Made by a program: the position numbers and the translations under genes. A DNA stretch of 64,000 nt. Source: Tepidamorphaceae bacterium. GTDB taxonomy: Bacteria; Pseudomonadota; Alphaproteobacteria; Rhizobiales; JAKSCL01. The DNA lies in the NCBI GenBank assembly GCA_028289445.1, contig JANQPO010000017.1, forward strand, positions 186,001-250,000, given 5' to 3'. Below, one piece after another: positions 43,960-63,285 of the stretch (positions are counted from its first letter, which is position 1; every line of letters starts with the position of its first letter). The notes beneath the pieces were generated by a model. The model was given only the letters and a program-made list of their open reading frames with translations. It was not told the origin of the DNA and did no database searches.

Positions 43960-44802
43960 ATGGATTCCTTCCTAGTCGAGCCGCAATGGCTGGAAGAACG
44001 GCTCGGCGACACCGAAATGGTTGTCATCGATTGCTCCTGGTACATTCCCGAGGCGGGAAAGAGCGGACATGAGGAGTTCGTGGCCGCCCATATCCCTGGG
44101 GCGCGCTTCTTCGATCTCGATGAGGCCTCTGATCCGACATCGACCTATGTCAACATGCTGCCGTCGGCGGGACGTTTTGCCGAAACTGTTTCGGCGCTCG
44201 GGATCGACAATCACCAAATGGTCGTCGTCTACGATTCCAGCTACGTGTCGGCGCGGATCTGGTGGATGTTCCGCCTGTTTGGCCATGATCGGGTGCGCAT
44301 TTTAAACGGCGGCTGGAAACGGTGGCTCGCAGAAGGCCGTCCCATCGAACGCGGCGTTCCGGAGCCGGCACCGCAAACGCAGTTCAAGGCAACGGCGCCG
44401 GCTGGCGGCGTTGCGACATGGCGTGATGTTGCCGCAGCCATCGAGACCGGCGATGCGGTTGTCGTGGACGCACGCACGCGAGAGCGGTTTACGGGAGAGT
44501 TGCCATCGGGTTATCCGGGCGTGGCCGGCGGGCACATGCCCGGCGCAATCAACATACCCTGGAGCACCATGCTGCCGCAAAGCGGAGATTTCACTTTCGT
44601 CGAGCCGGCGACGGCTGAAGCGATTTTTCGTAAGGCCGGAGTCGACATCGACAAGACGATTGTCTCGACCTGTGGGTCGGGTGTCACGGCGGCTGTTCTC
44701 GTGCTGCAGCTTGCGCGGCTTGGAAAGATCAATTGGACGCTCTACGATGGTTCCTGGCATGAATGGGGGCAACGCGACGACTTGCCGAAGCAGTCGCTTT
44801 GA
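43960..44802 (+). CDS. sseA: 3-mercaptopyruvate sulfurtransferase-like protein (two rhodanese domains)
   Basis: Sulfurtransferase (280 aa). Two rhodanese domains: residues 1-140 inactive (PEAGKSGHEEFVAAHIPGAR) and 150-280 with the active-site loop STCGSGVTAAVL, C238. The CGSGVTA loop is the mercaptopyruvate sulfurtransferase signature, distinct from rhodanese CRKGVT. It moves sulfane sulfur from mercaptopyruvate or a similar thiol to an acceptor. Coupled to a cystathionine lyase-like gene, it points to release and handling of organic sulfur next to the acyl-CoA operon. Confidence 0.9.
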   Translation: MDSFLVEPQWLEERLGDTEMVVIDCSWYIPEAGKSGHEEFVAAHIPGARFFDLDEASDPTSTYVNMLPSAGRFAETVSALGIDNHQMVVVYDSSYVSARIWWMFRLFGHDRVRILNGGWKRWLAEGRPIERGVPEPAPQTQFKATAPAGGVATWRDVAAAIETGDAVVVDARTRERFTGELPSGYPGVAGGHMPGAINIPWSTMLPQSGDFTFVEPATAEAIFRKAGVDIDKTIVSTCGSGVTAAVLVLQLARLGKINWTLYDGSWHEWGQRDDLPKQSL

Positions 44803-45980
44803 GCCGCGTGCCACGACCTTCGAAAGCTGCGGGCAGCCTGCTGGTTTCAGCGGGTCGCCTTCATGACCAGAGCGCGGTTGCGGTTAATCCGCCCGTGCAT
44901 CGCGCTTCCACCTTTTTATTCAACACGCTTGATGATTTCGAGGAAGCGGGCCGAACGCCGTTTGATGGGCCGTTCTACGGTCGCGTTGGAACACCGACGA
45001 TCTTCGCCTTCGAGTCGGCGATGGCTGAACTTGAAGGCGGCCATCGCACGATTGCGACCGCGTCAGGCCTGGCCGCGATATCGGCGACGTTTATGGCTTT
45101 TGCGACGCAGGGTGACCACGTGCTGGTGGTCGACACGGTCTATGAACCGGTCCGGCGGTTCTGCGACCGGTTGCTGGCGCGACTTGGCGTGGAGATCACC
45201 TATTATGACCCAAGGATGGGTGGCGATATCGAGCGCCTGATCCAGCCACGGACCAAGCTGATTTACATGGAATCGCCTGGATCCGGCACGTTCGAGGTCC
45301 AGGATGTGCCGGCGATCGTCGCGGTGGCGAAGGCGAAGGGTATCAAGACCGCTCTCGACAACACCTGGGCCACCCCGCTGTTTTTTAAGCCGATCGCGCA
45401 TGGCGTGGATGTCTCGCTTCAATCGGCGACCAAATACATTGCCGGTCATTCTGACGCCATGTTGGGCGCCGTCACGACGACGGCCGAAGGCTATGAGGCG
45501 GTGCGCCGGGCCACGCAGGACCTTGGCGCCTGTGCGGGCTCGGAAGAAGGTAATCTGGGCCTGCGCGGCTTGCGCACGCTGGAGGTGCGGCTTCGACACC
45601 ACGAAGCGTCGGCGTTCGAAGTGGCGCAATGGCTTCAAGTGCAGCCGCAAATCGCCAGGGTGCTGCATCCGGCTTTGCCGTCTTTTGCTGGCCACGAGAC
45701 ATGGAAGCGTGACTTCGAAGGATCGTCCGGCTTGTTCGCTTTCGAACTCGCGGGATTCGATCGAGAAGCCGTGCACGCGATGGTCGACGGGCTGGACCTG
45801 TTCAAGATCGGCTTCAGCTGGGGTGGCTATGAAAGCCTCGTCCTGCCCGTCGATCCGGAAAAGACACGCACCGTCGCCAAACATACCGGCGCCGGCCCGA
45901 TTCTGCGTGTGCATGTCGGGCTGGAAGCAGTCGACGATCTCAAGGCAGATCTGAGCAGCGGGCTTGCGCGGCTGCGATAA
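44799..45980 (+). CDS. Cystathionine beta-lyase-like PLP enzyme (Cys/Met metabolism family)
   Basis: PLP-dependent trans-sulfuration family enzyme (393 aa from TTG at 44799). Key blocks are FYGRVGTPTIFAFESAMAEL, ATASGLAAISATFMAF and the Schiff-base lysine in LQSATKYIAGHSDAMLG (K212). It ends like MetC (FKIGFSWGGYESL), which favours beta-elimination from cystathionine or other C-S substrates. An ATG at 44763 in frame would overlap the sulfurtransferase by 40 bases; a TTG overlapping its stop (TTGA) is preferred. Converges on the DAO oxidase gene. Confidence 0.87.
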   Translation: MSRVPRPSKAAGSLLVSAGRLHDQSAVAVNPPVHRASTFLFNTLDDFEEAGRTPFDGPFYGRVGTPTIFAFESAMAELEGGHRTIATASGLAAISATFMAFATQGDHVLVVDTVYEPVRRFCDRLLARLGVEITYYDPRMGGDIERLIQPRTKLIYMESPGSGTFEVQDVPAIVAVAKAKGIKTALDNTWATPLFFKPIAHGVDVSLQSATKYIAGHSDAMLGAVTTTAEGYEAVRRATQDLGACAGSEEGNLGLRGLRTLEVRLRHHEASAFEVAQWLQVQPQIARVLHPALPSFAGHETWKRDFEGSSGLFAFELAGFDREAVHAMVDGLDLFKIGFSWGGYESLVLPVDPEKTRTVAKHTGAGPILRVHVGLEAVDDLKADLSSGLARLR

Positions 45981-46024: not shown

Positions 46025-47356
46025 TCAAAATCCTATCGGCCAGTGATTGATCTTTGAACCGTCGATGAACCGGCTGTGACGGAAGGGCGTGGGATCGACA
46101 ACCGGGTCTTCGCCCGTGATCAGTTCGGTTATCAGCTGACCGGCCGCGGGGGCGATGCCGAAGCCGTGGCCGGAATAGCCCGTGGAGATATAAAATCCGG
46201 GGATCGCGTCTACCGGCGAGATAACGGGAATGGCATCGGGCGTCACGTCGATCCAGGCGCTCATGCGCTCGTTGACGACGAGATCCTTGAACGCCGGAAA
46301 CAGTGCCTTGATGTTGATGATCGCCTGGTCGAGAATGGCGTGCGCCGGTTCGGGACGTAGGACGCGGATCTTTTCGAACGGGCTGGGGCGATCCAGTTGC
46401 CATCGCGTTCTGGTGAAGGTTTCCTGCAAGGACCGTTTGCCGATCCGAAACTTCATGGCGCGCCACTCGTTCTTCAGGGCCGGGACATAGTCGCGCAGAT
46501 AGCGAAGGCTGTCGGGAACGATATCGACCGGATGTGCCGAGCGCATTGAAATGTTGTAACCCTCGTCCAGGCGCTTGCGGAAACCGAAACCCTTGCCCGA
46601 GCCGCAACCGGCAGGGCCGCCGGTGATCGGCCTGGTTCGCATCACCTGCGACAGTAGTTTGAGCTGGGGAAGCTTGACGCCCTGATTTCGACCGAAAAGA
46701 GTCGACCACACGCCGCCGGCCAGAACTACGCTGTTGCAGCAGATGCGACCCTTCTCGGTGGCGACTTCGCTCACCCGACCCCCTTCAGTCTCAAAACCGC
46801 GAACGGCGCATCCCTCGACAATGCGCGCGCCCAGTCGCACGGCAGCGCGGGCGATCGCTCGACTTGCGATGTGCGGTTCTGCAAAACCGTCGCTCGCTGT
46901 GTGCAGACCGCCCGCCCAGCTTCGGGTTGCGCCCGGCGCGAAGCTGCCGATCTCGTTTGCCGATACAAACCGAGTATCAAGATTGAAGCCTTCGACCGCC
47001 TTCATCCAACCATCATATTTCGCAAGGTCCTTTTCTTCGTCGCAGAAATAGGTGATGCCGCAAACGCGAAAGCCGACGTCGACGCCAAGAATCGACGCAT
47101 ATTCGGACCACATCTGCTGGGCGCGGATCATCAACGGAATCTCGCGAGGGTCGCGGCCCATCTTGCGCACCCAGCCCCAATTGCGGCTCGATTGCTCCTC
47201 GCCAATACTGCCCTTTTCACACAGCACGACAGGGACATTTCTTTGCGCGAGGGACAGTGCAGCGCAGACACCGACAATGCCGCCGCCGACGATAACGACT
47301 TCGGTCTCCGCTGGAACGACATCGAAGCCGTGATCGTGGGCAGTCTGAATGTTCAT
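46025..47356 (-). CDS. FAD-dependent oxidoreductase, DAO family
   Basis: DAO-type flavoprotein (443 aa). The FAD motif is EVVIVGGGIVGVCAALSLAQ, followed by SSRNWGWVRKMGRDP, a hallmark of one DAO subgroup. The C-terminal part has PGFYISTGYSGHGFGIAPAA, which closes over the flavin. ATG at 47356 has GAGAAG upstream. An ATG at 47392 overlapping the LysR stop would add 12 residues and is a fair alternative. Probably oxidises a secondary amine or amino acid. Likely in one transcript with the LysR gene. Confidence 0.86.
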   Translation of the reverse strand: MNIQTAHDHGFDVVPAETEVVIVGGGIVGVCAALSLAQRNVPVVLCEKGSIGEEQSSRNWGWVRKMGRDPREIPLMIRAQQMWSEYASILGVDVGFRVCGITYFCDEEKDLAKYDGWMKAVEGFNLDTRFVSANEIGSFAPGATRSWAGGLHTASDGFAEPHIASRAIARAAVRLGARIVEGCAVRGFETEGGRVSEVATEKGRICCNSVVLAGGVWSTLFGRNQGVKLPQLKLLSQVMRTRPITGGPAGCGSGKGFGFRKRLDEGYNISMRSAHPVDIVPDSLRYLRDYVPALKNEWRAMKFRIGKRSLQETFTRTRWQLDRPSPFEKIRVLRPEPAHAILDQAIINIKALFPAFKDLVVNERMSAWIDVTPDAIPVISPVDAIPGFYISTGYSGHGFGIAPAAGQLITELITGEDPVVDPTPFRHSRFIDGSKINHWPIGF

Positions 47357-47388
47357 TGCTCGCTTCTCACTGATTGACGCCTTGGCCG

Positions 47389-48336
47389 TCATGATGACTG
47401 GAGTGCGGAGTCAATCGCCGAAATCTTCGCGTGCAAGTCATCGGGTGTGGAAGGGTGCGCAAAATGGTCGGCGACAAAATCATGGAAGGTGCGCGCGGCG
47501 TTGGTGAGGCTCTCCCTGTCTGCGATCAGCCCGAGGGATACCGGCATCGCCGGCACAAAGGGCCTATACTCCAGCAGCGGATTGCGACGCAGATGCGGTG
47601 AAAACGGGCTAACGATCGACACGCCCAGACCAGCGGCGACCAGATTGCACACCGCCTCGTGCGTTGTGGCCTCGATCATCATCACCCGGCTGACATTTCG
47701 CCGCTGGAACAATGTATCGATCTCGAAGCGAAAGGGCGTGCCGCGCGGAAAGCTGATGAAGGATTGCCTGGCAAGATCTTCGGCGCCGATGATGTCGTGA
47801 CTTTCGAGTTCGTGCCCAGCGGGAAAGACGCATAGAACCGGCCGGCGGAGCAGTTCCTGGACCGGTATCGAGGCATTGGAGATTGGCAGTGTCGCGAAGC
47901 CGATGTCGCTACGCCCCGAGGCGACCCATTCCGCGACGCGATCTTGTGGCAAGCTATCGAGCCTGACCGCGACGCCCGGATGATGGAGACGGAATCGGGC
48001 GATGATGTCCGGCAACACTCCGTTGGCGTAAAGACCCATGGCCGCGATCGAAACAGTCCCGGTCGTCAGGTTCTTGATGGCCTGAACTTGTTGGCCGAGT
48101 TCTTCAAGCCCGACGAACAACCTGTCGACCTGCTCGCATAGGCGTCTGGCGTCGTCCGTCGGCTCGATACCGTTCCGCAAGCGGCGAAACAGCTTGAAGC
48201 CGACGGTTTGCTGAAAGTCCGTCATCAGCCGGCTGACGGCTGGTTGGGAAATGCCAAGCAGTTTGGCAGCCTTGGTCATGCTGCCCAGTGTGATGACCGC
48301 CCGGAATGCTTCAACTTGTCTGATGTTGAGCTGCAT
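47389..48336 (-). CDS. LysR-family transcriptional regulator
   Basis: LysR protein (315 aa). The helix-turn-helix is at 1-60 (FRAVITLGSMTKAAKLLGIS, QPAVSRLMTDFQQTVGFKLF), with the effector domain after residue 90. It is divergent from the BisC-like reductase operon with 196 bp between starts, the classical arrangement for LysR control of the divergent genes. The DAO oxidase follows it. The effector is unknown. Confidence 0.9.
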   Translation of the reverse strand: MQLNIRQVEAFRAVITLGSMTKAAKLLGISQPAVSRLMTDFQQTVGFKLFRRLRNGIEPTDDARRLCEQVDRLFVGLEELGQQVQAIKNLTTGTVSIAAMGLYANGVLPDIIARFRLHHPGVAVRLDSLPQDRVAEWVASGRSDIGFATLPISNASIPVQELLRRPVLCVFPAGHELESHDIIGAEDLARQSFISFPRGTPFRFEIDTLFQRRNVSRVMMIEATTHEAVCNLVAAGLGVSIVSPFSPHLRRNPLLEYRPFVPAMPVSLGLIADRESLTNAARTFHDFVADHFAHPSTPDDLHAKISAIDSALQSS

Positions 48337-48532: not shown

Positions 48533-50848
48533 ATGACCATTCAACGCTCGGCTTCACACTGGGGTGCGTTCCGTGCCGAGGTCGTTGACGGACGGATCAA
48601 AACCGTCTTGCCCTTCGAGCATGACCCGCGGCCAAGCCCGTTGAATTCGGTCTGGCCGGAAATGGTGAACTCGCCACTGCGGGTGGCCGCGCCCGCCGTG
48701 CGCAGCGGTTGGCTTGAAGGCGATGGCGGTTCCGGGCGCGGCGAGGACGACTTCTTCGAAGTTACATGGGACTATGCCCTGGATCTCGCCGCCGGCGAGA
48801 TCGGACGTGTCCGAGAGACGTTCGGCAACAAGGCGCTATTTGCCGGGTCCTATGGCTGGTCGAGCGCCGGACGTTTGCACCACGCACGTACTTTGGTGCG
48901 CCGATTCTTCAATTCGATCGGCGGGTTTACCGATCAGATGACGAACTACAGCTATGGCGCGGCGATGACGTTCCTCCCACGCGTCGTCGGCACGCAAAGC
49001 GCGATCGGCTCTCATCTCACATCAGCTCGCTCAATTCGCGATCATTGCGATGTAATGCTCGCTTTCGGCGGCATTCCGACGAAGAACTGGGAAGTCCAGG
49101 CAGGCGGATCGGGCGAACACCGCTACGACCTTTTCATGGCGGCGCTGTCCCACGGTACGCAGCTTATCAACATCTCGCCCCTCAAGGCGGATGTCGGCGA
49201 CGATCATGCGAACCGCTGGATTCCCATTCGGCCCAATACCGATACCGCGCTGATGCTGGCGATGATGCGCGTGCTTGACCGGGAAGGGGAGGTGGATCGA
49301 GCGTTTTTGGAGCGCTACTGCGCGGGCGCCGACATATTGTGCGATTACCTCGCGGGAAAGACCGACGGGGTAGAGAAGACGCCACAGTGGGCCAGCAGCA
49401 TAACGGCTGTTTCGGCCGAGACGATCGAGGCTTTGGCGCTCAGCCTGATCGGCAAGCGTGTTCTGGTTACCGCCAATTGGAGCCTTCAGCGGGCGCGCCA
49501 TGGCGAGCAACCGTACTGGGCGGCGATCGCACTGGCCGCGATGCTCGGCCAAATCGGTTTGCCCGGCGGCGGCTTTGCCTTTGGCTATGGCTCCTCGAAC
49601 GGCATGGGCAATCCGCGCTTTGACACGCCGCTGTACAGTTTGCACGTCGGCGACAATCCCACCGGTTCCGCTATCCCGGTCGCTCGGGTCGCCGATATGC
49701 TTCTCACGCCGGGCGGTACGTTTCAGTACGATGGGCGCGTCATTACCTATCCCGACATACATCTTGTTTATTGGGCTGGCGGCAATCCGTTTCATCATCA
49801 TCAAGACCTAAACCGCCTACGTGAGGCATTCCGCAGGCCGGATACCGTCATCGTCAACGAGTGCTATTGGACGGCCACCGCCCGGCACGCCGATATCGTT
49901 TTTCCCGCGACAACGGCCCTTGAGCGCGACGATATCGGCGGGGCATCGCGCGATCCGTTCATTCTGGCCATGCACAAGCTGGTGGAGCCGGTGGGCCAGG
50001 CGCGCAACGACTATCAGATATTTGCCGCGCTCGCCGAACGTCTCGGCGCACATCGGGCGTTCACGGAAGGGCGGAGCGCGGAGCAGTGGCTGGAGAAGGC
50101 GTGGCTGGAGATCTCGGCTCGACTGGCGGCGCGCGGGATCGTCGCACCACAACTGGAGCAATTTTGGGAACACGGGTATATCCGTATCCCCGATCCTGAT
50201 GACGACTACGTCATGTTTGCCGATTTCCGGGCGGATCCGGAAAAACACCGGCTCAACACGCCCTCCGGCAAGATCGAACTGTTCAGCCAACAAGTTGTCG
50301 ATTTCACCAATGGCGCACAACCTGGACATCCGGTTTGGCTGGACCCGGAGGAATGGTTGGGTGCGACGGCCGCCGATGTCCATCCGATCCATCTGCTGAC
50401 CCCGCAGCCGAAGCATCGCCTGCATGGGCAAATGGACTGGAGCGCACACAGCCGGGCCGGCAAGCGTCATGGGCGCGAAATCGTCAAGATGCACCGCGAT
50501 GACGCGCGGGCGCGCGGCATTGGAGATGGCGACATCGTCCGCTTGTTCAACGACCGCGGCGCCTGCCTGGCGGTCGCCGAACTGGAAACGGCGATGATGC
50601 GCGGCGTTGCGCTATTGGCGACCGGGGCGACCTACGACCCGGAAGGCAAGGCGGACCGCAACAGCAATCCAAACGTGCTCACCCGCGACATTGGCTCGTC
50701 CGAACTCGGCCAAGGGTGCGCGGCACAATCCTGCCTGGTGGAGATCGAGCGGTTCAGGGGAAGCCTGCCCGAACTGCGGATTGAACGTCCTCCGACCATA
50801 CGCTCTTCCGAACACCTGCGGGATGAACTTTGGGGCGCGCGCGCATGA
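48533..50848 (+). CDS. BisC-like molybdopterin S/N-oxide reductase
   Basis: Molybdenum enzyme of the DMSO reductase family (771 aa), strongly resembling E. coli biotin sulfoxide reductase in length and motifs: SASHWGAF near the start, LFAGSYGWSSAGRLHHA, MLGQIGLPGGGF, WAGGNPFHHHQDLNRL and TARHADIVFPATTALERDD. S140 in TNYSYGAA stands at the molybdenum-ligand serine position. There is no N-terminal 4Fe-4S cysteine set and no Tat signal, so it should be cytoplasmic and single-subunit. It should reduce a sulfoxide or N-oxide. No clear Shine-Dalgarno was seen. It leads an operon with four overlapping genes behind it and an amidase gene 25 bp further on. Confidence 0.9.
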   Translation: MTIQRSASHWGAFRAEVVDGRIKTVLPFEHDPRPSPLNSVWPEMVNSPLRVAAPAVRSGWLEGDGGSGRGEDDFFEVTWDYALDLAAGEIGRVRETFGNKALFAGSYGWSSAGRLHHARTLVRRFFNSIGGFTDQMTNYSYGAAMTFLPRVVGTQSAIGSHLTSARSIRDHCDVMLAFGGIPTKNWEVQAGGSGEHRYDLFMAALSHGTQLINISPLKADVGDDHANRWIPIRPNTDTALMLAMMRVLDREGEVDRAFLERYCAGADILCDYLAGKTDGVEKTPQWASSITAVSAETIEALALSLIGKRVLVTANWSLQRARHGEQPYWAAIALAAMLGQIGLPGGGFAFGYGSSNGMGNPRFDTPLYSLHVGDNPTGSAIPVARVADMLLTPGGTFQYDGRVITYPDIHLVYWAGGNPFHHHQDLNRLREAFRRPDTVIVNECYWTATARHADIVFPATTALERDDIGGASRDPFILAMHKLVEPVGQARNDYQIFAALAERLGAHRAFTEGRSAEQWLEKAWLEISARLAARGIVAPQLEQFWEHGYIRIPDPDDDYVMFADFRADPEKHRLNTPSGKIELFSQQVVDFTNGAQPGHPVWLDPEEWLGATAADVHPIHLLTPQPKHRLHGQMDWSAHSRAGKRHGREIVKMHRDDARARGIGDGDIVRLFNDRGACLAVAELETAMMRGVALLATGATYDPEGKADRNSNPNVLTRDIGSSELGQGCAAQSCLVEIERFRGSLPELRIERPPTIRSSEHLRDELWGARA

Positions 50849-51657
50849 GATTCGATCACTTAGTTCTACTGGTCCGGGATCTCGACAAGGCCTCCGTCGA
50901 TTTCAAGAAGCTCGGATTTGTCGTGCTGGAACGCGACGACACCAGCCACGGTTCGACCAGGTTCCGCTTCGTGTCGTTCGATGATGGCGCCTATATTCTG
51001 CTGACCGCCTTTTCGAGCGACGCGGCCATGGCGGCGCACCGGCTGGGACCGGTTCTGGCCGCGGGCGAAGGCTGGGCGGACTACTCCTTTCTGGTCGACG
51101 ATGCACACGCGGCCGGCCGGATGCTTGAAGCCGCCGGCATGTCCGTGGCCGGTCCGGTCGAGGTGGCCAATACGGTTGCCGGAGGCCACAAATGGGCGCT
51201 CGATCTGTTGATGGCTGGTCGCGGTGCGGGCGGCGATGTCGCGCTTCCCTTTCTGGTGTCCAATCGCCAGGGCGTCGAGCATCGCATTCCGGGACCATCG
51301 ACACATGCCAATGGGGCCAACGGCGTCACCGGCGTCAAGGTTGTAAGCACCGATCCCGCCGGGGTCGTCGACGGGCTGGTTGCGATAGGCGGGAAACGAA
51401 TGGTCGATGGGCCGGCGGACCGAGACGATATCCGCGTCGCCGTATCGGACGGTTGGGTGGATGTCGTCGCCAATGACGCATTGCCTTTGAAGCCTGAGGG
51501 CGGCTTCTTCGAAGCGCATCTTTCCTGCGATCGGTCCAATCTTCCGCCAGACGGCGAATTGCTCGATATCGATCTGACGCACGGCGCGGCATTGCGGCTG
51601 GTGCCGCCGGGATCGCGCGACGCTCTTGCTGAAAGGCGCGGGAGCCCAGGGTCATGA
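50845..51657 (+). CDS. Glyoxalase-like (VOC superfamily) protein
   Basis: Vicinal oxygen chelate-fold protein (270 aa) starting MRFDHLVLLVRDLDKASVDF. The N-terminal half resembles the glyoxalase-like domain often annotated as Glyoxalase_3. Metal ligands may include H5 and a glutamate near the end of each module, but the set is not clear. The reaction is unknown. Start chosen by ATGA overlap with the BisC-like gene. It also overlaps the hydrolase gene by four bases, so it belongs to this pathway. Confidence 0.75.
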   Translation: MRFDHLVLLVRDLDKASVDFKKLGFVVLERDDTSHGSTRFRFVSFDDGAYILLTAFSSDAAMAAHRLGPVLAAGEGWADYSFLVDDAHAAGRMLEAAGMSVAGPVEVANTVAGGHKWALDLLMAGRGAGGDVALPFLVSNRQGVEHRIPGPSTHANGANGVTGVKVVSTDPAGVVDGLVAIGGKRMVDGPADRDDIRVAVSDGWVDVVANDALPLKPEGGFFEAHLSCDRSNLPPDGELLDIDLTHGAALRLVPPGSRDALAERRGSPGS

Positions 51658-52349
51658 AGCGCACCGATCTGACGGCCAAGGCCATCTACGAGGCATGGAA
51701 GGCGAATCCGACGTTGCCGGCGTTCGGCTTCGGGGTGCGCGTTTGTCTGCTGAATGTCGATTTGCAACGGCGGTATACCGACACGGAGACCTTCGCCACC
51801 GCCTACGAAGGTGACAGCAACCAACTCCAGTTCGTCAACGCGATCGCCAGGGCCGTGCGCGACATGGCCATGCCGGTGGTCTGGACCTATGTGGCATATT
51901 TGCCGGATGGCAAGGATTGCGGTCGCTGGGGCACCCGAAGCGATGCGCCGATGGCGATCCAAAATGTAGGCCACCAGTCCCCTCAGGCCGAGATCGACGC
52001 CCGCCTTGAGGTTGATCGCGATCGCGACCTCATACTGCACAAGCGCATGGCGTCGGCGTTCTTCGAAACGCACTTGTCCTCGTTTCTCGTTTTCAACCGC
52101 ATCGATACGCTGATCGTGACCGGGGGGGCTACGTCGGGATGCGTGCGGGCCAGCATTGTTGACGCCATGTCACACGGGTATCGCGTGATCGTTCCCGAAG
52201 AGTGCGTGGCCGATCGCGAAGAGAGCCCGCACTATGCGGCGCTCTACGACATTGCCGTGAAATACGGCGACGTGCTGCCCGCCGCCGAGGTTCTCGAAAG
52301 TCTCGCCTCCATGCAGGGCAACAAACCGGTGACAGTCAATGCTCAGTGA
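51654..52349 (+). CDS. Isochorismatase-family cysteine hydrolase (N-carbamoylsarcosine amidase-like)
   Basis: Cysteine hydrolase (231 aa). The catalytic triad is visible: D36 (LLNVDLQRR), K130 (LILHKRMASAFF) and C163 (GGATSGCVRASIVDA). The cis-peptide region GGAT precedes the cysteine. N-carbamoylsarcosine amidase, ureidoacrylate amidase and nicotinamidase belong here. The TSGCVRAS loop suits N-carbamoyl or carbamate hydrolysis. It sits between the VOC and PuuE-like genes with overlapping ends, consistent with hydrolysis of a ring-opened ureide. Confidence 0.86.
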   Translation: MKRTDLTAKAIYEAWKANPTLPAFGFGVRVCLLNVDLQRRYTDTETFATAYEGDSNQLQFVNAIARAVRDMAMPVVWTYVAYLPDGKDCGRWGTRSDAPMAIQNVGHQSPQAEIDARLEVDRDRDLILHKRMASAFFETHLSSFLVFNRIDTLIVTGGATSGCVRASIVDAMSHGYRVIVPEECVADREESPHYAALYDIAVKYGDVLPAAEVLESLASMQGNKPVTVNAQ

Positions 52350-53274
52350 ACCGTTCAGCTACGATTACGCTCCTTATCAAAACCGCCCCAAGATCGTGTG
52401 GCCGAACGGCGCTCGCCTCGCGTTTTGGGTCGCGCCGAATATCGAGTTCTATGAATACGCGCCGCCCGAGAGCCCGGCTCGTTCGGTCTGGTATCGCCCG
52501 GAGCCCGACATCATCAACTATTCCATGCGCGACTACGGCAACCGGGTCGGCTTTCACCGCGTGGCCGACGTAATGGTGCGCCACGGTGTGCGCGGCAGCG
52601 TTTCATTGAATGTTGCGGTCTGCGACCACTTCCCGGACATTATCGAGCGATGCTGTGAACTGGATTGGGAGCTGTTCAGCCACGGCATCTACAACACTCG
52701 ATATCTCTACAATATGAGCGAGGATCAGCAGCGCGAGGTCATTCGCGACAGCCGCGAGACGATCAAGCGCCACAGCGGTCAGGACCTCGACGGTTGGCTT
52801 TCGCCTGCGATCTCGAACGGCGAAACCACGCAGGACCTTCTGGCCGAGGAGGGCATCAAATACACGCTCGATCTCTTTCACGACGATCAGCCCATGCCGG
52901 TCAAGGTGCGGTCCGGAAAGCGGTTGGTCAGTGTGCCATACATGATGGAGACCAATGATGTGCCGACATTGTCTTTCAAACACATCTCGCCAACGGCCTA
53001 TCTCGACATCGTCAAGGCGCATTTCGACCAACTCTATGAGGAGGGGGCGGAGAGCGGCACCATCATGTGCGTTCCGCTGCACCCCTATCTGATCGGCCAA
53101 CCGCACCGCATCGCCGTGCTTGACGAGATCCTCGGCTACATAACCGGCCACGATGACGTATGGCTTGCGACCGGGCGCGAAATCGCCGCCTGGTTTGAAC
53201 AGAACTACTACGACGCGTTTGTCGAGTGGATGAAACCGTTCAATCGTGCAGCCGCCAAAGGGCCGACCGCATGA
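52339..53274 (+). CDS. PuuE-like polysaccharide deacetylase-fold hydrolase
   Basis: NodB-fold protein (311 aa) resembling the allantoinase PuuE throughout: RDYGNRVGFHRV, WELFSHGIYNTR, DGWLSP, VSVPYMMETND and LHPYLIGQPHRIAVLDEIL. H115 (SHG) and H248 (LHP) are family-conserved. PuuE opens the cyclic ureide allantoin, so a cyclic ureide or amide is a reasonable substrate class here. It overlaps the preceding hydrolase by 11 bases and the following paralogue by four. Confidence 0.86.
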   Translation: MLSEPFSYDYAPYQNRPKIVWPNGARLAFWVAPNIEFYEYAPPESPARSVWYRPEPDIINYSMRDYGNRVGFHRVADVMVRHGVRGSVSLNVAVCDHFPDIIERCCELDWELFSHGIYNTRYLYNMSEDQQREVIRDSRETIKRHSGQDLDGWLSPAISNGETTQDLLAEEGIKYTLDLFHDDQPMPVKVRSGKRLVSVPYMMETNDVPTLSFKHISPTAYLDIVKAHFDQLYEEGAESGTIMCVPLHPYLIGQPHRIAVLDEILGYITGHDDVWLATGREIAAWFEQNYYDAFVEWMKPFNRAAAKGPTA

Positions 53275-54218
53275 GCGTTCCCGCCGACTATCTCGTTTAC
53301 CCGAAGCGGCGATCAGGCCCCGATCATGACCGCTATGGACATCGCTATCTGGCGACGGCGCCGGCCGTCGCTTGGCCGGACGGCAAACACTTGCTGATCT
53401 GGGTCACCATCCATTGCGAGCATTTTCCAATGGACATGCCCAAGGAGCCGTTCGTGCCGATCGGCGGCATGGATCGCCCCTCTCCGAGCGTTTGGGATTA
53501 TTCGACCCGTGACTACGGCAATAGGGTGGGGATTTTCAGACTGATGCGCGTGCTCGACCGGCATGATTTGCGCGCGACTGTCGCAATGAACAGCAAAGTT
53601 GCGGAGCGCTATCCGTATCTGCTCGACGAGATGCTCAAGCGGAACTGGGAGATAGCCGCCAGTGGCGTCGACATGGGTCGGCTGCATCATGGTTTGCTGT
53701 CCAAGGAGGAAGAGCGCGCCCAAGTCGACGAGGCCTTTACGACGCTGCGGCAGTTGAGCGGCCAGCCGGTCATCGGATGGCATTCGCCGGCGCATTCCCA
53801 GTCCTCCCACACGCCCGAACTGGCCGCCGGCGCAGGCGCTCGGTACATCGCCGACTGGATCAACGACGACATGCCCTACCGGTTCGAAACCGAGACGGGT
53901 GCGCTGGTCCAAATGCCACTCTCCTATGAGCTTTCCGATCGCAAGATCCTCTTTCTGCACAACCAATGCACCGACGACTACGCCGCGCAAATCACCGCGG
54001 CCTTCGACTGCCTGGACGCCGAGGCGCGCGAGAAGGGTGGACGGATTCTGTCTTTGTCCGTGTCACCTTGGGTGATCGGTCAACCTAGTCGCATTGCGGT
54101 GTTCGACCGGCTTCTAGAATCGTTTCTTTCCCGCGATGGCGTCGCCGGCGCAACGGGTGCGACGATCTGCGCGGCCTGGGAAAATCACGACGAGCAGGTC
54201 GGTATGGAGGACGAATGA
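53271..54218 (+). CDS. PuuE-like paralogue lacking conserved histidines
   Basis: Second PuuE-like protein (315 aa), paralogous to the gene before it (RDYGNRVGIFRL, VIGWHSPAHS, WVIGQPSRIAVFDRLL). The SHG histidine of the partner is replaced (WEIAASGVD, S131) and the LHPYLIG histidine also (VSPWVIG, S265). It may be a non-catalytic partner forming a heteromer, or it may have changed chemistry. Start at 53271 is chosen by ATGA overlap. Stop lies 25 bp before the amidase start. Confidence 0.83.
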   Translation: MSVPADYLVYPKRRSGPDHDRYGHRYLATAPAVAWPDGKHLLIWVTIHCEHFPMDMPKEPFVPIGGMDRPSPSVWDYSTRDYGNRVGIFRLMRVLDRHDLRATVAMNSKVAERYPYLLDEMLKRNWEIAASGVDMGRLHHGLLSKEEERAQVDEAFTTLRQLSGQPVIGWHSPAHSQSSHTPELAAGAGARYIADWINDDMPYRFETETGALVQMPLSYELSDRKILFLHNQCTDDYAAQITAAFDCLDAEAREKGGRILSLSVSPWVIGQPSRIAVFDRLLESFLSRDGVAGATGATICAAWENHDEQVGMEDE

Positions 54219-54243
54219 TGGGATTTCGACAGGCGACAGCGGG

Positions 54244-55620: not shown

Positions 55621-55690
55621 TCGAAGGGTGTCGTGGATGGTGCGGTTCGCGTGACCAACGACTTTGGTGTTCGCGACTGCGACCGGAGCA

Positions 55691-56063: not shown

Positions 56064-57692
56064 ATGACCAAACCGAGTTTCCAATTGAACCGTAGGGCGG
56101 TGATCAAAGGCATGTCGGCGGGCGCAGCCATGCCGTTTGTCCTATCGCCGTCGAGCCGTGCGCTTGGTAGCGGCGCGAAACATGGCGGTACTCTCACCAC
56201 CGTGGCCTGGCCGGGCACGACCTTCATGAACTCGGCGATCACGACCTCAGGGCCCGAGGCATTTCTGTCGCCCAAGATGTTCGACGGCCTGCTCGGCTAC
56301 GACTTTGGAATGCAGGGCAAACCCGCACTGGCGACGAGCTGGAACATATCCGAAGATGGATTGCGCGTGACCTTCAACCTGCGACCCAATGTCAAATGGC
56401 ATGACGGTCAGCCGTTCACCGCGCGTGACGTGGCATTCACGTTCATGGAGGTCATCAAGGTGCACCATGGGCGCGGGCGCACGCTGTTCGCAGACCTACT
56501 TGACGTTGAGACACCCGATGATCTGACGGCGGTTTTTGTTCTGAAGCGGCCGGCACCGGCGATGATGAAGGCGCTTGACGGGCGTGAATCGCCGATCCTG
56601 CCAAGCCATCTCTATGCGGGCACGGACATCATGGAAAACCCGCATAACATTGATCCGGTCGGCACCGGCGCGTTCAAGTTTGTCAGCCATGAACGCGGCG
56701 TCAGCGTCGTCATGGAGAGGAATCCGGATTATTGGGATGGCGACCGGCCTTATCTCGACCGGATCATCGTGCAGTACATCTCCGATGCCTCGACGCGCAC
56801 CGCCATGCTGGAAGCGGGGCAGGCCGACGTCGTTTTCCTCAATTTCCTGCCGGCGCTCGACATGCTGCGTATCGCCGAGAAGTCCGAATTCGAGATCGAC
56901 CTGAAAGGCTACGAAACGTCGGTCAGCCAGCAACAGATGGACTTTAACCTCGAACGGCCAGTCCTCCAGGACGTGCGGGTGCGTCAAGCGATCGCCCACG
57001 CCATCGATCGGGCCTGGATCGTCAAGAACGTGTGGCACGGCTTTGGCGAACCCGGCGCGACGCCGCTGCACCACGAGCAGGTATCATTTTACAATACCGA
57101 TGGTGTTCCGGGCTATGAATTCGATCCGAGCAAGTCGGAGGCTCTGCTCGACGAGGCTGGGCACAAGCGAGGTGCCAATGGCGTGCGTTTCGAATTGACG
57201 ATCGATCCAACACCCTATGGCAACGAGTCGGTGATCGCAGCCGAGTACATGCGCGAGCAGATGCGGCAGATCGGGATCGATCTGAAAATCCGCACGCAGG
57301 ACTTCGCGGTGTTCATCAAGCGGGTGTGGTCCGATCGCGATTTCGATCTGGCTCTTTATACGGCCGCGATGGGGGCCGACCCGACGATCGGCGTTCAGCG
57401 CTTCTACTGGTCTAAGAACTTCAAGCCGGGAGTGGCGTTCTCCAACGGGTCGAGCTATTCAAATCCGGAAGTCGACGCTCTGTTGGAGGCGTCCCAAGTC
57501 GAACTCGATCTGGCCACCCGCCAGCAGCAGTTTCATGAGTTCCAGAAAATCGCAATGACGGAGCTTCCGACCCTGCCCATCGTCTCGACAACCCGTGCCA
57601 CGATCGCTCATCGTAAGGTCAAGGACCACACGGTCGATGCGCTGGGTTCGTTGGGCAACCTCGCTCATTGCTGGATAGACGAGAGTGCGTGA
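56064..57692 (+). CDS. Dipeptide/oligopeptide-type ABC substrate-binding protein (family 5)
   Basis: Periplasmic binding protein (542 aa) of the DppA/OppA group. The N-terminus is a twin-arginine-type signal (LNRRAVIKGMSAGAAMPFVL). Family 5 features are FDGLLGYDFGMQGKPALATS, LRPNVKWHDGQPFTARDVAF, NPHNIDPVGTGAFKF and a NPDYWDGDRPYLD motif. Relatives bind peptides, glutathione, nickel or opines, so the ligand is open. First gene of the operon controlled by the two palindromes. Confidence 0.92.
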   Translation: MTKPSFQLNRRAVIKGMSAGAAMPFVLSPSSRALGSGAKHGGTLTTVAWPGTTFMNSAITTSGPEAFLSPKMFDGLLGYDFGMQGKPALATSWNISEDGLRVTFNLRPNVKWHDGQPFTARDVAFTFMEVIKVHHGRGRTLFADLLDVETPDDLTAVFVLKRPAPAMMKALDGRESPILPSHLYAGTDIMENPHNIDPVGTGAFKFVSHERGVSVVMERNPDYWDGDRPYLDRIIVQYISDASTRTAMLEAGQADVVFLNFLPALDMLRIAEKSEFEIDLKGYETSVSQQQMDFNLERPVLQDVRVRQAIAHAIDRAWIVKNVWHGFGEPGATPLHHEQVSFYNTDGVPGYEFDPSKSEALLDEAGHKRGANGVRFELTIDPTPYGNESVIAAEYMREQMRQIGIDLKIRTQDFAVFIKRVWSDRDFDLALYTAAMGADPTIGVQRFYWSKNFKPGVAFSNGSSYSNPEVDALLEASQVELDLATRQQQFHEFQKIAMTELPTLPIVSTTRATIAHRKVKDHTVDALGSLGNLAHCWIDESA

Positions 57693-58729
57693 GTGATTTG
57701 AAGACAGCCGCCGCAACACCAGACCGCAATGCCGCGCCGGGCTTGCGTTTCCTCCTGGGCCCTTTGCCTCGATATGTGTTGCGGCGGCTGAGTCAGGCGT
57801 TTTTGGTGATGCTGCTGGTCGTCGTCGGCAGCTTCGTTCTGGTCAAGATGGCGCCTGGCGACATGGTTGATGTGCTCGCCGGCAATGCCGATATGACCGC
57901 CGAGCAGATGGCGGCCCTGCGCGCGCGATACGGGCTTGACCAGCCCACATGGGTTCAGTTGTTGCGGTACATGTACAGCCTCGCAACACTGGATTTCGGC
58001 TATTCGCCGTTGAATGCCGCACCGGTGCTGGACATCATCCTCGCCCGCTGGCCAGTCACCGCATTGTTGGTGGTCTCTTCGGTGCTCATTTCGATGACCG
58101 TGGGTACGATCATGGGCGTCGTCGCGGCGCGAAACGCGGGAAATCCGGTGGATTTGTCGATCTCGCTGCTGATGCTGTTTTTCTATGCGACGCCCACGTT
58201 CATCGTCGCCATCGGGTTTATTCTCATTTTTTCGGTCTTTTTGGGGATGATGCCGATCGCCGGTTTCTCGACCGTCGGCGCTGACTATACGGGTCTGCGA
58301 TATGTCTGGGACGTCATTACGCATTTGACGATGCCGGTTCTGGCGCTTTGCACCTTTTTCACCGCGATCTATGGTCGCATCGGTCGGGCGGCGATGCTCG
58401 AAGTGCTGACGCTTGACTATGTGCGTACTGCCCGCGCCAAGGGTCTTAGCGAGCGGCGTGTCATTTATGTTCATGCATTGCGCAACGCCATGCTGCCGCT
58501 CGTTACCATGGCCGGCCTTCAGGTCAGTTCGCTGGTCGGCGGGGCAGTGTTGATCGAGACCATTTTTGGCCTGCCCGGCATGGGTCGAACCGCGTTCGAC
58601 GCTGTATTCGAACGTGACACCAACCTGCTGCTCGGTGTCGTCTTCGTCAGTTCGCTCAGCGTCGTCGTCGTGAATTTCGTCATCGACATGCTCTACATGG
58701 CGCTGGATCCGCGCGTGGAGCTGGCGTGA
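57689..58729 (+). CDS. Dipeptide-type ABC transporter permease, DppB-like
   Basis: Permease (346 aa, GTG overlapping the previous stop as GTGA). After a polar leader of about 30 residues comes YVLRRLSQAFLVMLLVVVGS, the standard first helix of DppB/OppB. GDMVDVLAGNADMTAEQMAA is the following periplasmic motif. The EAA-like loop is DYVRTARAKGLSERRVIYVH. Pairs with the next permease. Confidence 0.91.
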   Translation: MSDLKTAAATPDRNAAPGLRFLLGPLPRYVLRRLSQAFLVMLLVVVGSFVLVKMAPGDMVDVLAGNADMTAEQMAALRARYGLDQPTWVQLLRYMYSLATLDFGYSPLNAAPVLDIILARWPVTALLVVSSVLISMTVGTIMGVVAARNAGNPVDLSISLLMLFFYATPTFIVAIGFILIFSVFLGMMPIAGFSTVGADYTGLRYVWDVITHLTMPVLALCTFFTAIYGRIGRAAMLEVLTLDYVRTARAKGLSERRVIYVHALRNAMLPLVTMAGLQVSSLVGGAVLIETIFGLPGMGRTAFDAVFERDTNLLLGVVFVSSLSVVVVNFVIDMLYMALDPRVELA

Positions 58730-59571
58730 TGTTCGGCCGCCGATTCCTGCTGTGGCGCCTTGCCAGTCATCCCAGCGGTCTGGTCGGGCTGACCTTGATC
58801 GTACTGGCTGTCGCGATGGCGGTTTTCGCCGATTGGTTCTATTCTTCCGGGCCATGGACCTTGGCCGGGCCGCCGAGACTTTGGCCGGGTCAGGATCCCG
58901 CATTTCCGCTAGGCACCGATTCACTCGGACGCGATCTGGCAGCCGGGCTCTTCCACGGTGCGCGCGTGTCCCTTGCCGTTGGCATCGCGGCGGCGGCGGT
59001 GTCGGTCGTCATTGGCACCGTCGTTGGCGGCCTGAGCGGCTACTATGGCGGCTGGCTCGACGATGTCTTGATGCGCCTGACCGATGCGATGCAGACGATT
59101 CCGTCTTTCCTGTCCGCGATCGCCATTGTTGGCATTCTGGGACCATCGCTGTCGACCATCATCTTCGCCATCGCCATCGTGTCTTGGCCGATGATCGCAA
59201 GGCTGGTCAGAGCGGAATTCTTGCGTCTGCGCACTTACGATTTCGTGCAGTCCTGCAAGATCATCGGCATGTCCGATATGCGCATCATTTTCGGCCAGAT
59301 CCTGCCAAACTGCATGGCGCCGATCATCGTCGCCTCCTCGGTGCTCGTCGCGACCGCCATCATCGTGGAGGCTAGTCTGTCCTTTTTGGGGTTGGGCGAT
59401 CCGAACGTGATGAGCTGGGGTACGATCCTGGGCAATGGCCGGGCTGCCCTGCGTACGGCTTGGTACATGACCGCCATCCCGGCCGTGGCGCTGGTGTCGA
59501 CCGTGCTAGCGCTCAATCTGGTCGGCGACGCGCTCAATGATGTGCTCAATCCGCGGCTGAAGGAGCGCTGA
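58729..59571 (+). CDS. Dipeptide-type ABC transporter permease, DppC-like
   Basis: Permease (280 aa). The DppC signature PLGTDSLGRDLAAGLFHGAR is present near residue 60, and the EAA-like loop reads DFVQSCKIIGMSDMRIIFGQ. ATG at 58729 overlaps the prior stop by one base; GTG at 58726 would add one residue. Ends NDVLNPRLKER, as in the family. Confidence 0.91.
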   Translation: MFGRRFLLWRLASHPSGLVGLTLIVLAVAMAVFADWFYSSGPWTLAGPPRLWPGQDPAFPLGTDSLGRDLAAGLFHGARVSLAVGIAAAAVSVVIGTVVGGLSGYYGGWLDDVLMRLTDAMQTIPSFLSAIAIVGILGPSLSTIIFAIAIVSWPMIARLVRAEFLRLRTYDFVQSCKIIGMSDMRIIFGQILPNCMAPIIVASSVLVATAIIVEASLSFLGLGDPNVMSWGTILGNGRAALRTAWYMTAIPAVALVSTVLALNLVGDALNDVLNPRLKER

Positions 59572-60560
59572 TGATCGGTCTTGCGACGGATGCTCCGCTG
59601 CTCAAGGTGAGCGATCTTGCCATTGAATATGGGAAGGGCGTGTCGCTGATGGAACAGGTCGGTTTTTCCGTGCAACGCGGCGAGACTGTCGGCCTGGTCG
59701 GCGAATCGGGTTGCGGTAAGTCGCTGACCGCGCTTGCCGTGATGGGCCTGATGGCCCAAAACCTGCGTATCAGCCAGGGCGAGATCGAGCTTGACGGCGT
59801 CGATTTGGTGCAGATGCCCGACGTTGATCTGCGCAAGCTGCGCGGTGAGCGCATGGCGATGGTCTTTCAAGAACCGATGACCGCGCTCAACCCGGTGATG
59901 ACTGTTGGCGCACAGGTCGTCGAGGTTTTGAGGGAGCATCGCCGCATGACCCGGGCCGAGGCCGCCCGCAGGGCCGTGGAACTTTTGGAGCTGGTGCGGA
60001 TTCCCGACGCGGCCGCCCGCTTCAGCGACTATCCGCACCGGCTTTCTGGCGGTATGCGCCAGCGCGTGGTCATCGCCATCGCCATCGCCTGCAATCCTGC
60101 GTTGCTGATCGCCGACGAACCGACGACCGCACTGGACGTCACCGTGCAGGCGCAGATCCTGCAATTACTGAAGCGGCTCCAACGAGACGCCAATCTCGGC
60201 CTGTTGTTCATCACCCACGATCTGGGCGTGGTGCGTCAAATAGCCGACCGGATCGTCGTCATGTATGCCGGCTCGGTGGTGGAGGAGGGACCGGTGGATG
60301 CGGTACTCGACAATCCCCGTCATCCCTATACGACCGGACTGCTCGCCGCTCGGCCTCATGGCAGCTTCATCGAAGGCGGGCATCGGTTGGCTGACATAAA
60401 GGGAACGGTGCCGGCGCCGCACGCGCGGCCTACGGGGTGTCCGTTCGAGCCGCGCTGCGTCAATGCACAACCCGACTGCCGACAAAGCCCGCCGCCGCGC
60501 ACGGCATTCAGCGGTGATAGGGCGTTGCGGTGTTACCACCCATCAGGCAGCTTGAACTGA
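59571..60560 (+). CDS. Dipeptide-type ABC transporter ATP-binding protein, DppD-like
   Basis: ATPase (329 aa) with Walker [11 protein letters not shown], the Q-loop [10 protein letters not shown], the signature LSGGMRQR and Walker [13 protein letters not shown]. The C-terminal oligopeptide-transporter domain has the cysteine-bearing [17 protein letters not shown], which can hold a 4Fe-4S cluster in related proteins. AAGGAG precedes the ATG. Confidence 0.93.
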
Positions 60561-60564
60561 TCCG

Positions 60565-61587
60565 ATGAGCCGCGTCGTCGAGATAACTGACCTCAAGGTC
60601 TATCACCGCACGCCGCATGGACCCTTGCGCGCGGTGGATGGAGTTACCTTGCATGTCGACAGCGGTGAGACGCTGGGTCTCGTGGGTGAATCAGGCTGCG
60701 GGAAGTCGACGCTTGCACGCTGCATCGTGGGTATCAACCGTCCCAGCCAAGGCACAATCGCGCTTGGCGGGCAGGGTCTGGGCTCCGGCCGGGCGGACCG
60801 GCTGTCAAGGGCGCGGGCCGTGCAAATGGTGTTTCAGGATCCAAGCGGTTCGCTCAATCCCCGGCTGAGGGTCGGACGGATCATTGCGGAACCACTGATT
60901 GTCCATCGCCTCGGCTCAACCGCGCAACGACAGGTCCGCGTCGAGGACATCGCCGCGCAGGTCGGGCTGACGTCCCACCACCTGGATCGCTTCCCGCACG
61001 AACTGTCAGGCGGGCAGCGGCAAAGGGTGAGCATCGCGCGAGCCTTGGCGCTGGAACCGGGGCTGCTCGTCTGCGACGAAGCCGTATCGGCCCTTGACGT
61101 ATCGGTTCAGGCGCAGGTGCTCAATCTGCTTCTTGACGTGCAAGACCGCCTCAAGGTCGCGTTGCTGTTCATTTCACACGATCTTTCGGTGGTGCGCTAT
61201 GTCGCTCATCGCATTGCGGTGATGTATCTGGGCCGCATCGTGGAAGTCGGGCCGGCCGACGCGGTTTGGAAGCGACGCGCCCATCCGTATACGCGCGCGC
61301 TTACCAATGCCATTCCCGACGAGCAGGTGCGGCGCGACAACATCGAGCTTCTGGAAGGCGATGTGCCGAGCCCGATCAACCCGCCGTCGGGCTGCCCGTT
61401 TAGAACGCGATGCCCGTTCGCGCGGGCCAGATGTGCGGAGGAGGTGCCGCAATTGCGGGATCGCGGCGGCGGGTTGTCGGTCGCGTGTCATTTCGCCGAG
61501 GAAATCGAGCAGGGCAGGACGGCCGAGGCGACCGACTGGCCAGCGGCGGTGGGGGCTTCGCCCAACGCTTCGCTGACGAGCGCCTGA
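60565..61587 (+). CDS. Dipeptide-type ABC transporter ATP-binding protein, DppF-like
   Basis: Second ATPase (340 aa) with Walker [11 protein letters not shown], the Q-loop QDPSGSLNPRLRV, the signature LSGGQRQR and Walker B LLVCDEAVSALD. The C-terminal domain has GCPFRTRCPFARARC, as in its partner. Follows the DppD-like gene by four bases. The set is complete: binding protein, two permeases and two ATPases. Confidence 0.93.
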   Translation: MSRVVEITDLKVYHRTPHGPLRAVDGVTLHVDSGETLGLVGESGCGKSTLARCIVGINRPSQGTIALGGQGLGSGRADRLSRARAVQMVFQDPSGSLNPRLRVGRIIAEPLIVHRLGSTAQRQVRVEDIAAQVGLTSHHLDRFPHELSGGQRQRVSIARALALEPGLLVCDEAVSALDVSVQAQVLNLLLDVQDRLKVALLFISHDLSVVRYVAHRIAVMYLGRIVEVGPADAVWKRRAHPYTRALTNAIPDEQVRRDNIELLEGDVPSPINPPSGCPFRTRCPFARARCAEEVPQLRDRGGGLSVACHFAEEIEQGRTAEATDWPAAVGASPNASLTSA

Positions 61588-61610
61588 CGGTGGGCGACAG
61601 CGGACCGGCA

Positions 61611-61832
61611 ATGGATCGTCAGGCGATCGTCGATTTCATTCGTGAGTGGCATGGCATCACCCCGCCGGATCCCGTGGCGCTCGCTTTCGCGGAAGACATC
61701 GCCAGGATCATCGCCGCGTTCGAAGCTCTCGAACCGGCGCCATTCGAGGGCGAACCGACCGACTTCCTCGACGTTCTTGAGGCGTTCAGCGAGCGGAGGG
61801 CGGGACATGACCCGGCAGCTTCCGCCAAGTAA
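61611..61832 (+). CDS. AtzG-like small amidase-partner protein (1)
   Basis: Small protein (73 aa) starting MDRQAIVDFIREWHGITPPD. Mostly helical, then the tail FEGEPTDFLDVLEAFSER. Size, position and pattern fit the AtzG-like (DUF4089) group, which binds and stabilises AtzE-type amidases in the way GatC supports GatA. It overlaps the following amidase gene by 26 bases. A GTG at 61590 is an alternative start. The family assignment is by recall and pattern, so moderate confidence. Confidence 0.72.
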   Translation: MDRQAIVDFIREWHGITPPDPVALAFAEDIARIIAAFEALEPAPFEGEPTDFLDVLEAFSERRAGHDPAASAK

Positions 61833-63285
61833 ACGCGAAGCGACAACGCTCACCGATGCGGCCCATATGCTTGCCGCGGGCGAGATCGACGCGGTGGGTC
61901 TGGTCACCCGATGTCTGGACCGGATCGCCTGCGATGACGGTGTGGTCAACGCCTTCATCTGGCACGATCGGGAGGCGGCACTGGCGCGCGCTGGATGGGC
62001 CGACGCGCAAAGGAGGCAAAAGACAGGGTCGCCGACACTGCTCGGCATCCCAATGGCTCACAAGGATATGTTCGATCTGGCGGGCCGGCCATCCACCTGC
62101 GGCGCGGCGATCCGACGCGACGAAAGACCCGCTGGTCAGGCGACGGCGGTTGGACGGCTCGAAGAAGCCGGCGCCGTCACGCTGGGTGGGCTGAATATGT
62201 CCGAATTCGCACAAGGTCCCACCGGACACAATCGCCATTTTGGCGATTGCCGCAATCCGTGGAATCCGGCCTTTGTTAGCGGCGGCTCATCGTCCGGATC
62301 GGGCGCGGCCGTCGCTTCGGGCATGGTGTTGGCCTCGCTGGGCTCCGACACTGGCGGTTCGATCCGCATTCCGGCATCGTGCTGCGGGGTGACCGGTCTC
62401 AAACCCACTTATGGCCGGGTCAGCCGGTTTGGCGCGATGCCGCTTTCCTTTTCAATGGACTGCATCGGACCGTTGGCACGCAGCGCGCGAGATTGCGCCG
62501 TGGTGATGACGGCGATCGCCGGTCATGATCCGCGCGACAGGACGAGTAGCGCCGAGCCGGTGGACGACTACGTTGCCGCGCTTGACGGCGCAACTGCGGG
62601 CGATTTGTCGGACTGCCGCATTGGCGTGCCGCGTAACGCTTTTTTCGATGACGTCGATGCACCTGTCATGGACGGGTTCGAACGCGCGATGGATGTTTTC
62701 TCGGACCGCGGCGCGCAACTGCAGTTGATCGACCTGCCCGTGATGGATGCAGTCGCGGCCTATTCGGCGGTCGTCAGCCGGGTCGAGCTGGCGAGCTTTC
62801 ATAAGCCCTGGATGCGCGGTCGGCCCGGTGACTACGGGACGAGCGTCAGCGCGCGCATGTATCCCGCTTATGCGATCCCTGGGGTTCACTACGTCGAGGC
62901 ACTGCGCCGTCGCGGCGCGGTGCTGCGAGCCTTCGCCAGCGACGTATTCGGCAAGGTGGATCTGATAGCCTCTCCCACGATAGCCAAGATGGTTCCAACG
63001 CGCGCGCAAACCGATGTCGAAAGCGGGCAGCCCGGCGTGGTGGCCAAGTTTCTGTCGCTGTCCACCAACACGCGGCTGTTCAGCTATTTGGGCCTGCCGG
63101 CGATCAGTGTCCCGTGCGGGTTCGACACCAACGGCCTGCCGATTGGCCTGCAACTCGCGGGGCGGCCGTTTGCCGAATCCCGTTTGCTGCGGGCAGCCCA
63201 CGCCTATCAAACCGATACCGATTGGCACCGCATGGCGCCGTCATTGCGTCGGCTTGAAAAGGAAGAGACACAAAGTGGACAGTGA
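61807..63285 (+). CDS. Amidase signature family hydrolase (2), AtzE-like
   Basis: Ser-cisSer-Lys amidase (492 aa): K86 (GIPMAHKDM), S161 (SGGSSSGSGAAV) and S185 (SDTGGSIRIPAS). The ATG at 61807 overlaps the AtzG-like gene, and the frame before it is not amidase-like. It has the GatA-type KPTYGRVSRFGAMPLSFSMD segment. With a small partner it should hydrolyse an amide or carbamoyl group, possibly of a compound imported by the Dpp-like system upstream. Confidence 0.9.
   Translation: MTRQLPPSKREATTLTDAAHMLAAGEIDAVGLVTRCLDRIACDDGVVNAFIWHDREAALARAGWADAQRRQKTGSPTLLGIPMAHKDMFDLAGRPSTCGAAIRRDERPAGQATAVGRLEEAGAVTLGGLNMSEFAQGPTGHNRHFGDCRNPWNPAFVSGGSSSGSGAAVASGMVLASLGSDTGGSIRIPASCCGVTGLKPTYGRVSRFGAMPLSFSMDCIGPLARSARDCAVVMTAIAGHDPRDRTSSAEPVDDYVAALDGATAGDLSDCRIGVPRNAFFDDVDAPVMDGFERAMDVFSDRGAQLQLIDLPVMDAVAAYSAVVSRVELASFHKPWMRGRPGDYGTSVSARMYPAYAIPGVHYVEALRRRGAVLRAFASDVFGKVDLIASPTIAKMVPTRAQTDVESGQPGVVAKFLSLSTNTRLFSYLGLPAISVPCGFDTNGLPIGLQLAGRPFAESRLLRAAHAYQTDTDWHRMAPSLRRLEKEETQSGQ

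Follow-up and report, generated by a model that had tools for sequence, protein, structure and literature searches.

An old tandem pair of PuuE-fold paralogues as a candidate heteromeric cyclic imide or ureide hydrolase

Background

Why does a bacterium keep, directly behind the gene for a PuuE-like protein, a paralogue that lacks the conserved histidines of the family? This question is raised by two overlapping genes in a stretch of 64,000 nucleotides from a Tepidamorphaceae bacterium, the whole of which is referred to here as the window. A sequence-only reading of the locus had proposed a 1:1 heteromer of active and inactive subunits, or a changed reaction. Both gene products are annotated as 'polysaccharide deacetylase family protein', which is contradicted by their pocket residues and gene context. 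A description of a heteromeric PuuE-like enzyme was not found in the literature searched, most subscription journals being outside its scope.

The gene pair and its active-site residues

The gene of P1, the presumed catalytic subunit (311 amino acids; 52339..53274, plus strand), is followed by that of P2, its paralogue and presumed non-catalytic partner (53271..54218, plus strand). Both proteins contain the PF01522 domain, and their AlphaFold monomer models have a pLDDT of 87 and 94, respectively. The P2 reading frame is open from a GTG at 53226, the ATG at 53271 being the likelier start; from the latter, the gene overlaps the P1 stop codon by 4 bp (ATGA) and encodes 315 amino acids. Pairwise alignment of P1 and P2 gave 33% identity across 277 residues (E = 6e-50), and both share RDYGNRVG and the IGQP-RIAV block. 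Open reading frames, strand, identity, and domain content thus agree with the earlier description of two overlapping PuuE-like paralogues carrying these motifs. Likewise, alignment confirmed the reported replacement of both histidines by serine. His115 of P1 (SHG motif; codon 52681..52683, plus strand) corresponds to Ser131 of P2 (53661..53663, plus strand), and His248 of P1 (LHP motif; 53080..53082, plus strand) to Ser265 of P2 (54063..54065, plus strand). Both histidines are indeed family-conserved, as they also occur in PuuE (1z7a and 3cl6) and in the Mycobacterium smegmatis relative 3rxz.

The best PDB matches of both models were the PuuE structures 1z7a and 3cl6 (TM about 0.8), and both models also match the fold of HpPgdA (3qbu). 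At the aligned pocket positions, P1 has N34, E36, H115, N119, and H248, where PuuE has N, E, H, W, and H. The P2 protein of the window has His at the position of N34 and Met at that of N119, and retains the glutamate of E36; hence, the pattern N/E/H plus the motif-5 histidine is present in P1 and reads H/E/S/S in P2. PuuE is a non-metal-dependent enzyme (PMC10967932) and a C4 homotetramer (PMC12283931), with one independent active site in each monomer (PMC6983136). P1 resembles it in fold, in the N/E/H/H pocket, and in the DD-P and ND motifs. This PuuE-like, non-metal pocket pattern suggests that P1 is probably metal-independent too.

Two known functions of related proteins were considered and rejected. 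A metal-dependent deacetylase of the CE4 (NodB) type shares the PF01522 domain and the barrel with the pair, but the Asp-His-His triad is absent, the corresponding residues being E36/H115/N119 in P1 and Glu/S131/Met in P2. In HpPgdA (HP0310), the metal is bound via Asp14, His86, and His90, and water via Asp12 and His247 (PMC3084791); P1 differs from this enzyme, as from the CE4 polysaccharide deacetylases in general, by Glu for the metal-binding Asp and Asn for the second His, and its context is one of small-molecule catabolism. An allantoinase role, as in PuuE, was rejected in view of the scores against the PuuE model TIGR03212, which are far below the curated cut-off of 424.6 bits (120.1 bits for P1 and 95.6 bits for P2), and of a separate PuuE-like gene in the same genome. 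The latter gene (G000:C18:699872-700741), 57% identical to 1z7a, presumably encodes the real PuuE of this organism. In addition, PuuE is a homotetramer encoded by a single gene, unlike the pair.

The same fold family, to which both HpPgdA and the pair belong, includes the cyclic imidases HxnM of Aspergillus nidulans and CIH of Pseudomonas putida, which open cyclic imides; HxnM acts together with an amidase (PMC9304392, PMC8478523). The combination of an imidase and a half-amide hydrolase in one pathway resembles the situation in the window, where an amidohydrolase gene adjoins the pair. HxnM, by contrast, is encoded by a single gene, and the amide hydrolase that accompanies it has the amidase signature, whereas the one beside the pair is an isochorismatase-type enzyme.

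Co-inheritance of the two genes

In a census, 385 genomes of the class were searched with profiles of P1 (A1) and P2 (A2). Pair members were separated from single-gene relatives by a cut placed after a score gap was seen, and a truncated P1 (genome G203) was added manually, as it lies directly against P2. Each gene was found at 40 loci in 33 genomes. Both were present in 32 genomes (Fisher p about 2e-44, a descriptive value, as the genomes are not independent by ancestry), so that 32 of the 33 genomes with P1 also have P2. Independent occurrence of the two genes in most genomes, which the sequence-only reading had named as evidence against itself, is clearly not what was seen. P2 adjoins P1 at 37 of the 40 P1 loci. 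Two of the three exceptions lie at contig ends, with P1 on the edge of a 4-kb contig in G295 and both genes at contig ends in G196; in the third (G081), P1 and P2 are on different contigs (C81 and C110), away from the contig ends, and both are kept. Similarly, both genes are present but apart in a genome of another sample (G643; contigs C26 and C64). The first searches, covering loci with at least about 37% identity to P2, had returned a P1 orthologue directly upstream at every locus, barring contig edges. Furthermore, the same tandem arrangement was seen on plasmids of Salipiger, Comamonas, Burkholderia, Agrobacterium, and other members of the Alpha- and Betaproteobacteria, and in a metagenome-assembled genome of the Gammaproteobacteria (L052). 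P1 and P2 behave as a single unit that is old and widely distributed.

Obligate co-occurrence, as expected of a heteromer of an active and a dead paralogue, was thus observed, including the unlinked cases that keep both genes. One genome counts against an obligate heteromer: G221, which is 87% complete, possesses P2 (L125, contig C44), and a search of this genome for a P1-clade gene found none. Relatives of P1 that have the N, E, H, N, H pattern and lack a neighbouring P2 occur as single genes at six loci (L121-L124, L033, and L039), two of which (L123 and L124) adjoin a gene for an isochorismatase-family amidohydrolase.

The same co-inheritance data fit a P2 that acts as a regulatory, substrate-binding, or folding partner and contacts P1 transiently, without being a stoichiometric subunit. 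Dead paralogues can indeed be activators, as in trypanosomatid deoxyhypusine synthase (PMC3663545). Against such a transient role, P2 keeps the full PuuE fold, and PuuE and HpPgdA, two characterised proteins of the family, form tetramers, which makes a heteromeric assembly the simpler explanation; a transient partner is considered very unlikely. Deoxyhypusine synthase and its prozyme, a heteromer of a catalytic and a dead paralogue, may also be likened to the heteromer of P1 and P2 proposed here, although fold and reaction are unrelated and the loss in P2 is lineage-specific and recurrent.

Fate of the catalytic residues and selection on P2

The two members of the pair differ in how their pockets have been preserved. 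The five P1 residues (N, E, H, N, and H) were unchanged in all 50 full sequences, and in one truncated sequence. Among the 37 P2 proteins of group A, to which the window belongs, the E/H/H set is kept in seven, all three residues are gone in eight, and 22 are intermediate; one or both histidines are missing in 30. In the sister group B, E/H/H is kept in 12 of the 14 P2 proteins. The variants at the three positions are E/Q/G/A, H/S/A/N/C/Y/G, and H/S/T/N/R/Q, respectively, and Ser/Ser is uniform in the operon clade of the window (the window and L041-L045). In a tree computed with the catalytic-residue columns left out, support was 99 for P1 (A and B together), 99 for P2 of group A, and 98 for P2 of group B, the joining of the two P2 groups being weak (67). 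Parsimony required at least six changes in P2 at the position of H115, six at that of H248, and four at that of E36, these minima comprising losses and gains alike. Orthologues of P2 with the histidines, which the sequence-only reading had also named as evidence against itself, therefore do exist. A loss of histidine fixed across the family is thereby ruled out; the losses are recurrent.

Since many relatives of P2 keep all three catalytic residues, P2 may be active in those lineages. This is in line with P1 and P2 being ordinary tandem duplicates, each an active homomer on a related substrate, with the P2 of the window representing one of several lineages in which function is being lost; the E/H/H set in most group B proteins and at seven group A loci speaks for it. 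Yet P2 proteins that have lost all three residues are as constrained as intact ones, and decaying copies would vanish from genomes, whereas P1 hardly ever occurs without P2. Active duplicates are hence regarded as quite unlikely.

Indeed, P2 is under purifying selection, as judged from coding-sequence comparisons. Its dN/dS is 0.02-0.11 in close pairs and 0.07 in a clade with Q/N/N, in which all three catalytic residues are absent; these values cover about half of the pairs tried, the remainder being probably saturated. Together with its retention in genomes, this rules out P2 as a pseudogene or decaying copy. P2 evolves at 1.7-2.6 times the rate of P1, with median rate ratios of 1.77, 1.90, 2.62, and 1.71 for zero, one, two, and three catalytic residues kept, i.e. 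without a trend with their number, and the distances of P1 and P2 correlate (r = 0.89). As the constraint is independent of the residue state, selection probably preserves some feature of P2 other than catalysis at that site.

Such a feature could also be a different activity. If P2 were an enzyme in its own right that catalyses a changed reaction, using other pocket residues for another step of the pathway, the two genes would be co-inherited as both steps are needed, and conserved adjacency and correlated trees would be expected as well. The purifying selection on P2 is consistent with this, as are its own conserved positions (e.g. E148, W170, D195, D199, and R258), the extra histidines after the SHG position in group A, and the retention of the E36 glutamate in most P2 proteins. 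However, the free variation at the three pocket positions is not what a newly fixed catalytic set would show, and the ratio of the P2 to the P1 rate does not depend on the residues kept. A separate enzyme accordingly appears unlikely.

A feature of its own is an N-terminal arm specific to P2 (residues 7-35; 53289..53375, plus strand), which is conserved among P2 relatives with the consensus YxxYPxRxxGMDHDRYxxSxLxxRxP. Its GMDH portion (with Q or N as variants of the His) also occurs in P2 of group B. The arm is absent from P1. It is a candidate element for binding P1 or reaching into the P1 pocket.

Gene context and candidate pathway

The commonest neighbour of the pair, adjoining it at most group A loci, is a gene for an isochorismatase-family amidohydrolase (ISO; PF00857; 51654..52349, plus strand in the window). 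The closest PDB relatives of ISO are N-carbamoylsarcosine amidohydrolases (26st and 1nba); 3ot4 and 3uao, structures of the maleamate amidohydrolase NicF, also match. The operon of the window starts with a BisC-family molybdopterin S/N-oxide reductase (48533..50848; TIGR00509, 895.9 bits, below the cut-off of 1017.55; syntenic in four relatives) and a VOC/Glyoxalase_3 protein (50845..51657; PF13468; syntenic in L041, L042, L044, and L045). These are followed by ISO, P1, P2, and an amidase-signature hydrolase directly downstream of P2 (54136..55620, with an uncertain start at about 54240; PF01425; syntenic). Next come an SBP_5-type ABC importer (56064-57692, 57668-58729, 58726-59571, 59571-60560, and 60565-61587, the binding protein matching PF00496) and a second amidase-signature hydrolase (61642..63285; AtzE-like, below the cut-off; syntenic), all on the plus strand. 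The importer operon (56064..61587) is kept in L041, L042, L044, and L045, and the operon as a whole is conserved in Pararhodobacter, Aquibium, Chelativorans, and Corticibacterium. Upstream, domain matches and synteny identified a divergent LysR regulator (47389..48336, minus strand) and a DAO-family FAD oxidoreductase resembling sarcosine and D-amino-acid oxidases (46025..47392, minus strand). Further upstream on the plus strand are a cystathionine beta-lyase (44763..45980; TIGR01324 above the cut-off; beside the cluster in L041, L042, L044, and plasmid pPABY2) and a sulfurtransferase of the 3-mercaptopyruvate type with rhodanese domains (43960..44802; PRK11493, 239.5 bits versus a cut-off of 250; also in pPABY2). 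The Salipiger plasmid pPABY2 (L155) carries the same enzymes as the cluster of the window, plus hydantoinase/oxoprolinase subunits. Because a BisC-family reductase, a cystathionine beta-lyase, and a sulfurtransferase are present, the clusters of the window (43960-63285) and pPABY2 suggest a sulfur-linked catabolic pathway with a sulfur-containing cyclic imide or amide as the substrate. On the minus strand, genes for a CoA ligase, a CoA-transferase, an SDR, an acyl-CoA dehydrogenase, an APH-like protein, and a GntR regulator (37038-43721) perhaps form a separate acid-degradation cluster.

Roughly twelve group A loci combine the pair with a lyase of the isocitrate lyase/PEP mutase family, related to 2,3-dimethylmalate lyase (3fa3); loci with the pair and such a lyase are L085, L087-L091, L094, L096-L098, L103, L054, and L156. 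A LeuCD/DmdAB-type hydratase (TIGR02087 above the cut-off; match to 4nqy) is often found at the lyase-bearing group A loci. These loci fit a route from a cyclic imide via a half-amide to a substituted maleate, which would be hydrated to a malate and then cleaved, suggesting breakdown of an imide such as a substituted maleimide. A literature search for maleimide hydrolases gave no useful match, and a paper on riboflavin catabolism mentions no enzyme of the family of the pair.

Conclusions

An obligate heteromer is favoured by the joint inheritance of the two genes, the unchanging P1 residues, the repeated loss in P2, the constraint on P2, and the ISO neighbour, and is considered moderately probable: a PuuE-fold cyclic imide or ureide hydrolase with P1 as the catalytic subunit and P2 as a partner with an expendable site. 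That P1 and P2 form a complex is our inference, as are the stoichiometry of this complex, the part played by the arm, and the class and substrate of the reaction, which is read from two sources, the fold and the gene neighbours. Instead of the C4 homotetramer of PuuE, P1 and P2 would probably form an alternating alpha2-beta2 ring. P1 would carry the active site (N34, E36, H115, N119, and H248), probably without a metal, and open a cyclic imide or ureide. P2 would hold the assembly together, its own site being dispensable, and would perhaps complete or gate the P1 site via its conserved N-terminal arm. ISO would then receive the half-amide (or carbamoyl) product of ring opening. The fuller proposal, namely that Alpha-, Beta-, and Gammaproteobacteria share a widespread and hitherto undescribed heteromeric imide/ureide hydrolase, that the P2 site was lost in several lineages while the arm completes or gates P1 in trans, and that the pairs form a natural series of steps towards a pseudoenzyme subunit, is tentative and rather doubtful in all its parts together.

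If the heteromer is real, the pair would provide a bacterial model, with second subunits ranging from intact to fully degenerate, of how a homomeric enzyme becomes a catalytic and structural pair. It would also give a function to a catabolic module that likely degrades cyclic imides or ureides and comprises the pair and an isochorismatase-type amidase, in many cases along with a lyase and a hydratase of the LeuCD/DmdAB type.
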